IMG/VR virus record: IMGVR_UViG_3300046740_000204
Span: 1-31,320 of that record
Reading direction: 5' to 3' (one strand)
DNA length: 31,320 nucleotides
DNA from: a virus
Shown: one piece after another, positions 18,628-23,260 of the stretch
Position numbering within the stretch: the first letter of the stretch is position 1
How the letters are laid out: each line of letters starts with the position of its first letter
Notes under the pieces: generated by a model
What the model saw: the letters and a program-made list of their open reading frames with translations, nothing else
Database searches by the model: none
Told to the model about the DNA's origin: nothing
Made by a program: the position numbers and the translations under genes

Positions 18628-18811
18628 GCGCGTTGCTCCTTTTGCGTCCTGGCTCGAGAAGTCCAAGTTTACGCCTACGGGTTTTGATGGCTTCCACGCT
18701 ACAGCCGAAACGTTCCGCCAACATTACGTTTGCCACGCCCTCGTGCACCGCCTTGGTCAGGCGCGCGTCGCGCGCCGGGGTCCAGTCCCGATCGGCGCGT
18801 GTGAAGGCCAC
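18485..18811 (-). CDS. Small putative DNA-binding protein (Myb/SANT-like helix-turn-helix)
   Basis: 108 aa from a GTG at 18811 that shares one base with the upstream stop (TAGTG); a weak GGA lies upstream. The pattern DWTPARDARLTKAVHEG, VANVMLAERFGCS, VEAIKTRRRKLGL is a homeodomain-like helix-turn-helix with a basic recognition helix, as in small phage regulators. The basic run EPGRKRS follows. The last 47 residues overlap the ORF of the next gene in a different frame and look less protein-like, so the functional part is probably the first 60 residues. It might bind DNA in late infection; its target is unknown. Confidence 0.55.
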   Translation of the reverse strand: MAFTRADRDWTPARDARLTKAVHEGVANVMLAERFGCSVEAIKTRRRKLGLLEPGRKRSNAHEGTIDGAEYVEPGAADGEARAASVFDGDGTKRAQHGNEGPGADPGR

Positions 18812-19239
18812 TACTGAGGGTTTTCCATCATCGCGAGCGTCGGGTGCGCCCGGGCCCAGGTCTGATAATCGTTGTTCAGACCGACCTCGGAGAAGACGGC
18901 GTAAATCTTGCGTTGCGCGCCGTTGTTGGTGGAGAGGAAGGTGAACAGGTCGCCTGGCGCGCCGCGCATGCGGTCGGGCACCATGACGACCCACGAGGAG
19001 GCGTCGCGGACCGCCCAGGGCGGCGAGAGGATCGCCCCGGTATCGGGCGCGGGTGGCGGCAGGGATCCCAGGATCACCGGCAATGCCGGTGCCGCGCCGG
19101 TCTCGTCGATCAGCCACGCCAGCACCGCGTTGTCGTGCAGGATCACGTAGGCCTCACCCGCCGGGATATCCCCCTCGGGCACCGCGTTATACTCGCATGA
19201 GATCAGGGTCGTCGTGACGACCGGGGTGATAGGCACCAT
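18811..19239 (-). CDS. 142-aa protein of unknown function
   Basis: MVPITPVVTTTLISCEYNAV at the start, ATG at 19239 with GGAG nine bases upstream. Segments include GEAYVILHDNAVLAWLIDET, ILSPPWAVRDASSWVVMVPD, and GDLFTFLSTNNGAQRKIYAV, with a conserved-looking VFSEVGLNNDYQTW near the end. It looks like a beta-rich soluble protein without membrane segments. Its place in the run of small capsid-module genes suggests a minor head or accessory role. I do not recognise the family. Confidence 0.7.
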   Translation of the reverse strand: MVPITPVVTTTLISCEYNAVPEGDIPAGEAYVILHDNAVLAWLIDETGAAPALPVILGSLPPPAPDTGAILSPPWAVRDASSWVVMVPDRMRGAPGDLFTFLSTNNGAQRKIYAVFSEVGLNNDYQTWARAHPTLAMMENPQ

Positions 19240-19242
19240 GGA

Positions 19243-19506
19243 TCAAGTCTCCTTTGCAACGATTGTGTAGCCCTCATCGAAGGCCTTGGCCGGGCTGATG
19301 CTGCGGTAGCCGTCGGGGTAGAGCATGGCCCAGTCGCCGACGCGGACATTGTCGAGCATCCCCGCGTGTGTCGGGGTGAACACCTCCACCAGCCCGCCGT
19401 TGCCCGGATCGACCAGGACGCTGCGCCCGCCCGGGCCGCCGATCACGTCGATGATCCGGGCCGCGCGCACGACCTTGTGGCTGACATACTCCGGCCAGTC
19501 GATCAT
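19243..19506 (-). CDS. 87-aa conserved phage head-module protein
   Basis: MIDWPEYVSHKVVRAARIID at the start. The pattern HKVVRAARI, VDPGNGGLVEVFTPTHAGML, VRVGDWAMLYPDGYRSISPA, KAFDEGYTI is a recurrent small beta-rich protein encoded in the capsid region of many tailed phages; the V-G-D-W/Y...Y-x-D-G-Y-x-S-I-S-P motif is the most telling part. The ATG overlaps the stop of the upstream gene (ATGA). The role is unknown. Confidence 0.72.
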   Translation of the reverse strand: MIDWPEYVSHKVVRAARIIDVIGGPGGRSVLVDPGNGGLVEVFTPTHAGMLDNVRVGDWAMLYPDGYRSISPAKAFDEGYTIVAKET

Positions 19507-19714: not shown

Positions 19715-19888
19715 TCAGATACGCCCCATGAGTAAGAGGATGAGAAGGACGAGCACGAGTAGCCCGCCGAAACCTATTCCGTATCCGTAATGAGGATACT
19801 GGGCGTAATAGCCCGAACGATATCCCCAGCCGCCGCCGAAGACGACGAGCACGAGGATGACGATCAGAATGAGAGTCAGTGGGCTCAT
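19715..19888 (-). CDS. Small hydrophobic protein, DUF3309-like
   Basis: 57 aa (MSPLTLILIVILVLVVFGGG) with a Gly/Tyr-rich centre (WGYRSGYYAQYPHYGYG) and a second hydrophobic segment ending LLVLVLLILLLMGRI. This resembles DUF3309 proteins, very short membrane proteins in bacteria and phages. The ATG at 19888 overlaps the stop of the Acb2-like gene by four bases, and GGAG lies about ten bases upstream. It sits between two helical hairpin-type proteins. Its role is unknown; a membrane-located partner of those proteins is a guess. Confidence 0.72.
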   Translation of the reverse strand: MSPLTLILIVILVLVVFGGGWGYRSGYYAQYPHYGYGIGFGGLLVLVLLILLLMGRI

Positions 19889-20106
19889 GGCCGTGGTGCT
19901 CCATCCGCTTCGCGGGTGATGGCGACGTTCGCCCACATCGCGGCATCGCGTAGCAGGCGCATCACGTGATCCTTGTCCGCCCCCTCGGGGAGGATCATGC
20001 CGACGCGTTCAGCGCATTCAGCGAACGAGGAGCGCGAGTCGGTCATGGCCTCCTTCTGTGCCTCGGTCGGCATCAGGTAGCCGAAGGTCGTGGAATGCAG
20101 GCTCAC
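19885..20106 (-). CDS. Acb2/Tad1-like hairpin protein (putative anti-CBASS/anti-Thoeris sponge)
   Basis: 73 aa from a GTG at 20106 overlapping the stop of the upstream gene (GTGA). The pattern FGYLMPTEAQKEAM, SRSSFAECAERVGMILPEG, KDHVMRLLRDAAMWANVAI fits the common phage Acb2/Tad1 hairpin family: F-x-Y-x-x-P-x-x-x-Q at the start, an L-P turn, and a last helix with MWANVAI ending in TRE. Known Acb2 proteins form hexamers that bind cyclic nucleotides made by CBASS, and Tad1 members bind Thoeris signals. That activity is known for the family, not for this protein. It is encoded among capsid genes, so it may be expressed late or delivered early by another promoter. Confidence 0.72.
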   Translation of the reverse strand: MSLHSTTFGYLMPTEAQKEAMTDSRSSFAECAERVGMILPEGADKDHVMRLLRDAAMWANVAITREADGAPRP

Positions 20107-20471
20107 AACGTCGCCGGATCGGTGAAGGTGGCGAGGTTGGGATCCATCTCCTTCGGCACGTCACGCCCGGCGAAACGGCGCTCCTTGCGCGTCGGGGCCC
20201 GGGTGGAGACCTCGGCGGAGGGCGCGGGTGGCTGCTTCTGGGCCTCGGTCGACTCGCCCACCCGGGCGGCCTGCGCGGCCAGCAGCGCGGTCTGAGCGTA
20301 TTGTTCATGCCCAACCTTGGGCGGGGGCTCGACGAAGCCCTCGCAGTGCGCCTGGACATACCAGTGCTCCGCGACGGCCTCGTCGACGTCGTAAGTCCCC
20401 GGCAGATACTCGGTCAGCCGGTGGTTGTCGTCCTTCAGCATAAATTGTTTCACGACCGTGATGGTTGGCAT
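20103..20471 (-). CDS. 122-aa head-module protein
   Basis: ATG at 20471 with GGAGG five bases upstream, preferred over the in-frame ATG at 20483. The N-terminal half has MPTITVVKQFMLKDDNHRL, LPGTYDVDEAVAEHWYVQAH; the second half is a disordered-looking Ala/Pro/Gln-rich linker (STEAQKQPPAPSAEV) and a basic patch (RKERRFAGRDVPKEMD). The pattern I-T-V-V-K-x-F and G-x-Y-x-V-x-x-x-V-A-E-H-W-Y is recurrent in small phage head proteins right after the major capsid gene. The specific function is unknown. Confidence 0.7.
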   Translation of the reverse strand: MPTITVVKQFMLKDDNHRLTEYLPGTYDVDEAVAEHWYVQAHCEGFVEPPPKVGHEQYAQTALLAAQAARVGESTEAQKQPPAPSAEVSTRAPTRKERRFAGRDVPKEMDPNLATFTDPATL

Positions 20472-20568
20472 GTGTTCCTCCATGAGAAGTCGGTGGGCCA
20501 GCGTGCGCGCACGAGGCGCGTGATAATCTGCGAGCCCGGGCTCAAAACGTCAAAGCGGTGAAAACGTT

Positions 20569-21573
20569 TCAGATCCCGTCGCGATAACCGCAGGTCTCGG
20601 GATAGACATACTCGAGCACACCCAACCGGCAGTAGTAGGTGGTCAGGTTGTAGAGTGAACGCCACTCCAACGGGGTGCGGCTCATCGATGTCATAGGGTA
20701 ACGAACGCGCTCGTATTCCTTGGTGTAGGCCATCATGCGCTGCGAGCCCGCCGCGCCGCGACCGTTCAACCATTTCAGCGGTTGAATGTTGAGCGGACGA
20801 CCGTTCGCGGTGTTGCAAAGCGAGTTCTCCTGAATGAAACGCATCAGGGAGATATTGCCCGCCTCGGACACCTTCATGCTGACCAGGATGCCGAACTCGG
20901 TCGGTGGCACCCGTAGTTCCGTCGGCATCACGGCCCAGCCGGAAGCTCTCCACGTCGCCTCGAGCAGCTCATTGATCTGCGCCAGGATGACGTCGGGTGT
21001 TCCAGCCGCCTGCGCAGCCGCCCATGTTCCGCCCGTGACGTTCGCCACGTTCGATACGCTTGGGTGATTAAGCAGGCCGAAAGAGTTGACCGTGGGGTCG
21101 CCGATGTAGACCAGCTTGTCGACGTCCATCTGATACTTCAGGCGGATGACGGCGTATTTCTGATCGTCGATCGGACGGCCCAGACGCATGGCCGACTCAA
21201 GCTCGGGCATCGTGTAGCTCAGCTCCATGCCCCAGAGATACAAGGGCTGCGGAACCTTGCCGATGTCCAGTTGCGCGCCCGTGATGGCGTTGGCGTCCTT
21301 GCCAATCCATGACACGCCGGTCGGGTCGATACCGCCCGTGGCCGCGTAGCTGGACAACGTGAACGATGATACCTCGTCGCCCACGGTGATGTCGTCGCGG
21401 ACATCGATGTCACGGCCCCAGGTATAAGCGACAAGGGGCTCGTGGATCGTCTGGTCGAGGCGCTCAAGCTCCCCGATCAGGAAGACGCCCGTCGCGTCGC
21501 GGGTGCGCGCGTCGAACGTGAAGGCGGGGCCGCCGTTGCCGCCCATACCAAACCGGCCCATTCCATCAGGCAT
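20569..21573 (-). CDS. Major capsid protein, DUF2184 family
   Basis: 334 aa, ATG at 21573 with GGAG about ten bases upstream. Pattern: LIGELERLDQTIHEPLVAYT, DDITVGDEVSSFTL, WGMELSYTMPELESAMRLGR, VDKLVYIGDPTVNSFGLLNH, TPDVILAQINELLEATW, LRVPPTEFGIL, GRGAAGSQRMMAYTKEYERV, RYPMTSM, ending LGVLEYVYPETCGYRDGI. This is the DUF2184 HK97-fold major capsid protein. There is no N-terminal scaffolding extension, so scaffold is provided separately, and a scaffold-like gene lies two genes upstream. A 97-base gap separates it from the next gene. Confidence 0.9.
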   Translation of the reverse strand: MPDGMGRFGMGGNGGPAFTFDARTRDATGVFLIGELERLDQTIHEPLVAYTWGRDIDVRDDITVGDEVSSFTLSSYAATGGIDPTGVSWIGKDANAITGAQLDIGKVPQPLYLWGMELSYTMPELESAMRLGRPIDDQKYAVIRLKYQMDVDKLVYIGDPTVNSFGLLNHPSVSNVANVTGGTWAAAQAAGTPDVILAQINELLEATWRASGWAVMPTELRVPPTEFGILVSMKVSEAGNISLMRFIQENSLCNTANGRPLNIQPLKWLNGRGAAGSQRMMAYTKEYERVRYPMTSMSRTPLEWRSLYNLTTYYCRLGVLEYVYPETCGYRDGI

Positions 21574-21743: not shown

Positions 21744-22247
21744 TTACAGGTTGAAGGCGATCTCCGTCATGCCCGTGGCATCCGCCGGACCCGTGAAGTA
21801 GGTCGTCATCGGCGAGCCGAGCGGTGCGATCGTCGCGCCAACAGGCAGCGCGGAGATCCCGCCGATCGGCGTGTCGGCGTCACCCGGCAGACCAACGCCC
21901 ACCGCGCCGCCCTTGACAGCCGTTCCGCTCATCAAACGAACTGTCATGTAGCCGCGCTTCAGGATGTTGGCCTCGCCCCATGTCGGAGGCGTGTCGACCC
22001 CGAGCGGATCCTGCGATGCGTTCGTCGGATACGGACGCACGTAGAGTCCATAGATCGCCGGGGTGGCACCGTCGGCGGCATCAGGTGGCCGCACCTGACC
22101 GACGACGGGATCGATCATGACCGCCTGGCCGTAGAACGTCGGCGGGTTGGTGGGCATGATCATCTGGGCCTCGACGGTGGCACCCGCCCCGACCCGGTTG
22201 ACCGCGCCGGGGATACCGGCGGGCAGGCTGTAGGTAAACGCTACCAT
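21744..22247 (-). CDS. Capsid cement / decoration protein
   Basis: 167 aa, ATG at 22247 with AAGGAG upstream. The pattern MVAFTYSLPAGIPGAVNR, ATVEAQMIMPTNPPTFYGQA, VMIDPVVGQVRPPDA, IYGLYVRPYPT, LKRGYMTVRL, VKGGAVGVGL, GATIAPLGSPMTTYFTGPA matches the structural cement proteins encoded just before DUF2184-type capsid genes. They sit on the outside of the capsid at threefold or quasi-threefold points and lock it after expansion. Between it and the scaffold-like gene there are 26 bases; the Pro/Thr peptide follows. Confidence 0.82.
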   Translation of the reverse strand: MVAFTYSLPAGIPGAVNRVGAGATVEAQMIMPTNPPTFYGQAVMIDPVVGQVRPPDAADGATPAIYGLYVRPYPTNASQDPLGVDTPPTWGEANILKRGYMTVRLMSGTAVKGGAVGVGLPGDADTPIGGISALPVGATIAPLGSPMTTYFTGPADATGMTEIAFNL

Positions 22248-22273: not shown

Positions 22274-23260
22274 TCAGTGACGCGGCGCGCCGGTCTGCTT
22301 CGACCAGAAGTCGTGGTTCGCCGCGTTGATTTTCTTCAGCCGCGCCGTCTGCTCATCGCGCGCGATGAACACATCGTCGCCCGCGACGAAGTTGTCCTTG
22401 GTGTTGTTGCGGGCTTTCATCCGATCGGACGCGTCCAGGAACAGGGCCCGGACCCCGTCACAGGACATGCGCTTGATCGTTTCGGGTGTCCAACGACCCA
22501 GGATGGCCTTGCCGTCGGCGGTTTTCGCCGCCGCGTCGAGCACCGCGCGGCGCGCCCCACAGAGGGCGTCGGCGGTCTTCAGGCCAGGCTTGGCGTCGAT
22601 CGTCGGCATCTTGAACCCGGGCACCAGGATCTCGCCCCGGGCGCGGACATCCTTGATCAGCCGGGCGAGGCCCTTGACCACGGCGGCGTCGCCCATTTTC
22701 ATCTCGCCGGTCTTCTTGGACCCGTCGGCGTCCATCAGCTCCGGCTCGGCGGCGGCCAGCTTCTCCATGCTGAGCTTGCCCTCTTCCCCGTCCGGGACGT
22801 CCATGTCCTCGGTCGGAGGATCCTTCGGCGGATCCCCGCCCTCGGCGGCTGCGGGATCCCCGCCCTCGCCCTCGGCACCGCCCTGGAGCCATGGCGGCAG
22901 CTCGCCGTCCTTGGTCGCCTTCGCGATGGCGTCGCACATCAGGCTGAGCTTGGTGTCGATCGCCTTCAGCCCGCCCTCGAGCTTGCCGATGCGGTCTTCG
23001 ACCGAAGCATCGCCGCCGTGCTTGATGTGCACGTGGACGGCGGAGTTGTGCTTCTCGTCGCCCTCGTCGCCGTCGGGCTCCTGTTGGAGCAGCTCGGGCG
23101 GGATCGCCTCCTCGGCGTCCTTCACGATCGCCGCGAGCGACGCCTTGTCCCTCGCGAAGAACGCATCGTTGATGAAGTCGCGCACGGTGCGGCGCTGTGT
23201 AGCAGGCATGTCCAGGCTCCTTGTTCTGGTTTGCTGGCAGAGATCACAACCGCATGGCAT
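22274..23260 (-). CDS. Scaffold-like capsid assembly protein
   Basis: 328 aa, ATG at 23260 (MPCGCDLCQQTRT) with AAGGAG nine bases upstream. After CGCDLC comes VRDFINDAFFARDKASLAAI, VHVHIKHGGDASVEDRIGKL, a Gly/Pro/Asp/Glu-rich disordered stretch near residues 110-150, then MKMGDAAVVKGLARLIKDVR and a basic C-terminus ending LKKINAANHDFWSKQTGAPR. This resembles the scaffold part of DUF2213-type prohead protease/scaffold proteins. The protease half, normally N-terminal, is not visible. A C-x-C-x-x-C cluster at residues 3-8 is unusual. It is the first structural gene left of the plus-strand island. Confidence 0.62.
   Translation of the reverse strand: MPCGCDLCQQTRTRSLDMPATQRRTVRDFINDAFFARDKASLAAIVKDAEEAIPPELLQQEPDGDEGDEKHNSAVHVHIKHGGDASVEDRIGKLEGGLKAIDTKLSLMCDAIAKATKDGELPPWLQGGAEGEGGDPAAAEGGDPPKDPPTEDMDVPDGEEGKLSMEKLAAAEPELMDADGSKKTGEMKMGDAAVVKGLARLIKDVRARGEILVPGFKMPTIDAKPGLKTADALCGARRAVLDAAAKTADGKAILGRWTPETIKRMSCDGVRALFLDASDRMKARNNTKDNFVAGDDVFIARDEQTARLKKINAANHDFWSKQTGAPRH

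Follow-up and report, generated by a model that had tools for sequence, protein, structure and literature searches.

A short hairpin gene inside a capsid operon

The window analysed here, i.e., the whole of an IMG/VR viral sequence record of 31,320 bases, harbors a capsid operon that runs from the genes of a cement protein and the major capsid protein through a phrog_2619 gene to three short genes, encoding a 73-aa hairpin protein, a DUF3309-like membrane protein (MSPLTLILIV...GGGWGYRSGYY...LLLMGRI) and what we call the KDCAVRA protein, followed by the genes at 19243-19506 and 18811-19239 (Table 1). A scan for promoters and terminators returned nothing informative. The coordinates that the initial annotation had given for the 73-aa gene are exact (its minus-strand orientation is added here), and the details it had listed are indeed present in the product and around it: the F-x-Y-x-x-P...Q start reads F8-x-Y10-x-x-P13...Q17, the MWANVAI helix is M57-WANVAI63, the coupling GTGA is formed by the TGA stop of the upstream gene overlapping the GTG start, and the gene does lie within the capsid cluster, starting ca. 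460 bases past the end of the major capsid protein gene with one gene in between.

Table 1 Features of the capsid operon in the window, in operon order
Feature	Position	Strand	Evidence or place
Decoration/cement protein	21744-22247		Capsid operon
Major capsid protein	20569..21573	minus	PF09950 (E 6.7e-71), phrog_264 (E 1.8e-72)
126-aa protein, gene between capsid gene and putative cassette, phrog_2619 (function not annotated)	20103..20483	minus	PHROGs
GTGA overlap of upstream-gene stop and hairpin-gene start (translational coupling)	20103..20106	minus	Sequence
Acb2/Tad1-hairpin protein, 73 aa, GTG start	19885..20106	minus	PF24729 match, AlphaFold2
ATGA overlap of hairpin-gene stop and membrane-protein-gene start	19885..19888	minus	Sequence
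DUF3309-like small membrane protein, 57 aa, second gene of putative cassette	19715..19888	minus	PF11752 (E 0.0044, below cut-off)
KDCAVRA protein, 69 aa	19503..19712	minus	phrog_1761 (8e-27), phrog_1454 (1.6e-4)

The short length and GTG start of the 73-aa gene could raise the suspicion of a chance or decayed open reading frame, a reading to which we give practically no weight, as it is already refuted by conservation: the family (hereafter, the hairpin family) has at least 351 relatives in IMG/VR and a Pfam match, and 16 positions are invariant across 45 sequences (F8, P13, Q17, M21, R25, G42, D44, R50, R53, M57, W58, N60, D68, G69, P71, and R72). It also appears to be nearly restricted to viruses, given that two partial matches in 84,980 species genomes stand against the number recovered from IMG/VR.

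Family membership and predicted fold

The sole Pfam match of the 73-aa protein is the Acb2/Tad1 hairpin model PF24729 (E 1.8e-8; 34.9 bits against a curated cut-off of 27), spanning residues 10-65 of the protein and positions 2-58 of the 58 in the model, and all 45 non-redundant relatives match this model and no other in Pfam. When PF24729 was searched over the whole T4 genome, the only match was vs.4, i.e., the proven sponge Acb2. Both the 73-aa protein (E 4e-11) and, with a slight match, T4 Vs.4 also fall into phrog_1454, whose function is not annotated. No direct profile-to-sequence match between the hairpin family and the Acb2 proteins of T4 and Pseudomonas phage reached significance; it is the Pfam model that ties them together. 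Querying the PDB by single sequence and by profile likewise retrieved no Acb2, on account of divergence or short length.

The AlphaFold2 model (45-sequence alignment, pLDDT 97.2) consists of two long antiparallel helices (residues 15-38 and 43-64), with N-terminal strands absent. A structure prediction against Acb2 and Tad1, proposed as a check in the initial annotation, gave a mixed outcome: the hairpin fold was predicted and the best two of the 106 chains compared with VIA-align were T4 Acb2 (7uq2; Z 6.8, 65 aligned residues, 3.9 A) and Acb2 8h2x (Z 6.2, 63 aligned, 3.3 A), but the margin is slim, since unrelated helical proteins reached Z 5.9 and a Z of 6-7 is not decisive for a two-helix hairpin. 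A Foldseek search of the PDB with the same model gave no significant match (Acb2 E-values > 2). The structural matches of the predicted model agree with the profile result, without in themselves proving family membership.

Taken together, profile (PF24729), fold and motif support membership in the Acb2/Tad1 hairpin family. Of the combined Acb2/Tad1-like label used previously, however, only the first half describes the architecture. The domain after which PF24729 is named also occurs in Tad1 (Clostridium botulinum prophage 8SMD, SBSphiJ7), but there a four-stranded antiparallel beta sheet lies in front of it (PMC12043709). This sheet is missing from the 73-aa protein, which we do not assign to Tad1, given its length and the absence of N-terminal strands in the model. 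In the predicted model, the architecture is a plain hairpin of the Acb2 type, and we regard the protein as a real but ordinary addition to the family, found in an unusual place.

Pocket residues

With T4 Acb2 (Vs.4, PDB 7UQ2), the 73-aa protein shares PF24729, a helical hairpin without an extra domain and a similar second helix (LKEASMWA in T4, LRDAAMWA here), whereas the T4 protein is longer (88 aa, with longer helices) and its gene sits in the vs cluster, away from the capsid gene. The Pseudomonas-phage Acb2 (p26, PDB 8H2J/8H2X/8IXZ) is likewise a hairpin, though of ca. 92 aa and with 11% identity over the structural alignment. In a MAFFT alignment, Tyr10, nearly invariant among the 45 sequences, pairs with Tyr8 of T4 and Tyr11 of the Pseudomonas phage, and the invariant Arg25 with T4 Lys23 and Pseudomonas-phage Lys26, the latter of which we take to be the basic pocket residue. 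Two other T4 positions are replaced, i.e., Phe82, which stacks on the ligand, by Thr64 and Thr68 by Arg50, so that ligand choice may differ. As the Pseudomonas-phage Acb2 also lacks a Phe at the former position, Phe82 is not a family-wide criterion. In T4 Acb2, the mutation Y8A disrupts cyclic dinucleotide binding as well as Panoptes triggering (PMC12657218, PMC12657230), and T68M weakens binding (PMC12657230). The hairpin family also has a conserved C-terminal ITREADGxPR tail with no counterpart in either of the two Acb2 proteins. Judging from the aligned residues, a nucleotide pocket is likely, whose specificity is not readable from them.

A putative two-gene cassette

In another virus (L155), orthologues of the gene at 22274 and of the cement, capsid, phrog_2619, KDCAVRA and 18811 genes are found in the same order, the hairpin and DUF3309 genes are missing, and the phrog_2619 stop overlaps the KDCAVRA start directly (TGATG). 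The absence of both genes from between coupled neighbors indicates either a two-gene insertion or a loss in L155, and from this gene order the two look like an inserted cassette. The 87-aa gene at 19243-19506 (minus strand) is a second presence/absence difference of this stretch: in L155, the KDCAVRA orthologue is followed by that of 18811 without it.

A DUF3309-like gene follows the hairpin gene directly or nearly so in L002, L085, L092/L093, and L113 and with a gap in L119-L121, and the pair recurs in about five phage contexts. Across the 92 loci of the hairpin family (the window and its near-twin L002 included), such a gene is located directly or nearly directly downstream in nine and elsewhere in the locus in only four others. 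We rejected the DUF3309 gene as a fixed partner, given that only about a tenth of the relatives have one and that, of the DUF3309-like phage genes found, most have no sponge neighbor. Speculatively, the pairing may shield the membrane from attack by effectors of the defense systems that sponges counter.

The initial annotation had also described the late-module location of such genes as frequent, which finds no support in this clade. Around 51 relatives, most neighboring genes encode recombination (Sak4- and Erf-like) or ParB-like proteins, DNA polymerase, terminase, or portal, and the 25 commonest PHROGs on each side include no major capsid family. Based on L155, the capsid location looks like a local insertion.

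A probable phage-encoded signal sponge

It is sponges that determine if a phage is stopped by nucleotide-signalling immunity (CBASS, Thoeris). We consider that the 73-aa protein is an Acb2-like signal sponge, with a probability of roughly 0.7. The all-helical hairpin would assemble into a small oligomer (a hexamer in known sponges) that would bind alarm signals (cyclic di- or trinucleotides or molecules of the cyclic ADP-ribose type) and leave them uncut, and CBASS, Thoeris or related effectors would thereby be kept inactive during expression of the capsid operon. It is by inference that we assign the protein a sponge role and the phage a resistance to CBASS or Thoeris. The gene probably entered the operon within a two-gene cassette, together with that of the DUF3309-like membrane protein. 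Thoeris is able to detect the major capsid protein (PMC12043709, PMC11312562), so that a sponge co-translated with it would appear in step with the trigger. Sponges can also betray the phage, as Acb2 triggers Panoptes (PMC12657218).

The position of the gene inside the capsid operon, overlapping its neighbors, would also suit a hairpin oligomer that serves the virion, i.e., a small protein of the head or of its assembly, translated alongside the capsid genes. Such a part should, however, travel with the head genes, whereas the relatives occupy recombination, replication and other modules and the close capsid operon of L155 does without it, and we regard a virion role as very improbable. The loss of the T4 contacts Phe82 and Thr68, along with the family-specific ITREADGxPR tail, could rather point to a partner other than an immune signal, be it a protein of host or phage or a housekeeping nucleotide. 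This is unlikely in our opinion, as the pocket tyrosine is kept, an Arg aligns with the putative basic pocket residue and the tested members of PF24729 are sponges. Signal sequestration by the 73-aa protein is the reading that we favor.

A second, remote hairpin family in the same operon

The KDCAVRA gene had been missed in the initial annotation, and its placement in the hairpin superfamily is new here; we found no mention of the KDCAVRA motif or of its PHROG numbers in the open-access literature. The family is present in 312 of 50,697 phage records and in at least 573 IMG/VR loci, with members in phages of Vibrio, Erwinia, Acinetobacter, Gordonia, Myxococcus, and Microcystis, and, among the 40 of the 312 matching records that were listed, 38 annotate the protein as hypothetical. 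Most members sit within clusters of head and packaging genes, so that the frequent location near capsid genes, not seen for the hairpin family, does apply to this one. The named genes found most often beside them are those of terminase, portal, head morphogenesis, head-tail adaptor, and head maturation protease, and annotated examples from Acinetobacter phage YMC/09/02/B1251 and Vibrio phage 1.089.O have a major capsid gene close by.

None of 20 members matches PF24729 above the cut-off (best E 0.07), and the match to gp27 of Brevibacterium phage AGM1, also a member, stays under it (E 8.5e-4). A profile-profile comparison of the two families with hhalign, on the other hand, gave an E-value of 8e-6 (1.6e-5 with deeper alignments). 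In a reciprocal profile test over 25,482 ORFs, each family provided the top non-self matches of the other, in one direction for the first 40 without exception and in the other with a single exception, apparently a frame-split piece of the own family. The KDCAVRA profile, searched over whole records, also hit hairpin-family genes as judged by coordinates (G042, E 1.7e-5; G040, E 4.8e-4).

The predicted KDCAVRA model (pLDDT 94.4) has a short N-terminal helix and two long helices. In a structure search of BFVD its own family came first, and most of the named matches that followed were Acb2/Tad1 hairpin proteins, with a probability of up to 1.00 and TM 0.71. Foldseek gave no significant match to the PDB, and a further list of its structural matches contains no Acb2, which is not evidence of absence. 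Besides sharing an operon in the window, the two families (phrog_1761/phrog_5120 in the case of KDCAVRA) have in common an LPxGPxKxxxLRKLxEA turn and helix, e.g., LPDGPEKSxxLRKLLE in the Brevibacterium and Acinetobacter phage members against LPDGPDKTYxLRKLRE in the hairpin family. They differ in that KDCAVRA proteins have an invariant Ser where the hairpin family has its putative basic pocket residue, and lack a Pfam match above the cut-off. Profile comparison and predicted structure place the KDCAVRA family in the Acb2/Tad1 hairpin superfamily, as a remote branch that is not curated.

Nine positions are invariant across 55 KDCAVRA sequences (H13, S22, E41, R47, K48, E51, K53, D54, and R58), and such strict conservation suggests one conserved partner. 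We tentatively raise the possibility, at odds well short of even, that the operon holds two sponges and that KDCAVRA proteins form a widespread, unrecognised sponge branch that is expressed along with head and packaging genes and aimed at a conserved nucleotide signal, in which case hundreds of phages would carry an unrecognised anti-defense gene. An obligate pairing of the two hairpin families was rejected owing to their rare co-occurrence: a strong KDCAVRA match is present in two of 50 hairpin-family records, and in the reverse direction two of 50 are over the cut-off.

Several KDCAVRA variants were seen in other phages. The gp27 gene of Brevibacterium phages occurs in a 64-aa form (AGM1, L239:2501-2695) and an 81-aa form (3T, L238:2501-2746; seemingly also AGM11, by match length), which are set apart by 51 bases of the hairpin turn, LPDGPEKSTALRKLLET, duplicated in tandem and in frame, possibly a sign of recent selection. 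Insertions in the inter-helix turn are present in two further members (L186:1811-2053 and L204:3826-4062). In an Erwinia jumbo phage (L220:3761-4189), a P-loop segment (GPVGAGKS) precedes the hairpin as an N-terminal fusion, and an Ochrobactrum-phage member in the BFVD list is named an anti-TRAP domain protein.
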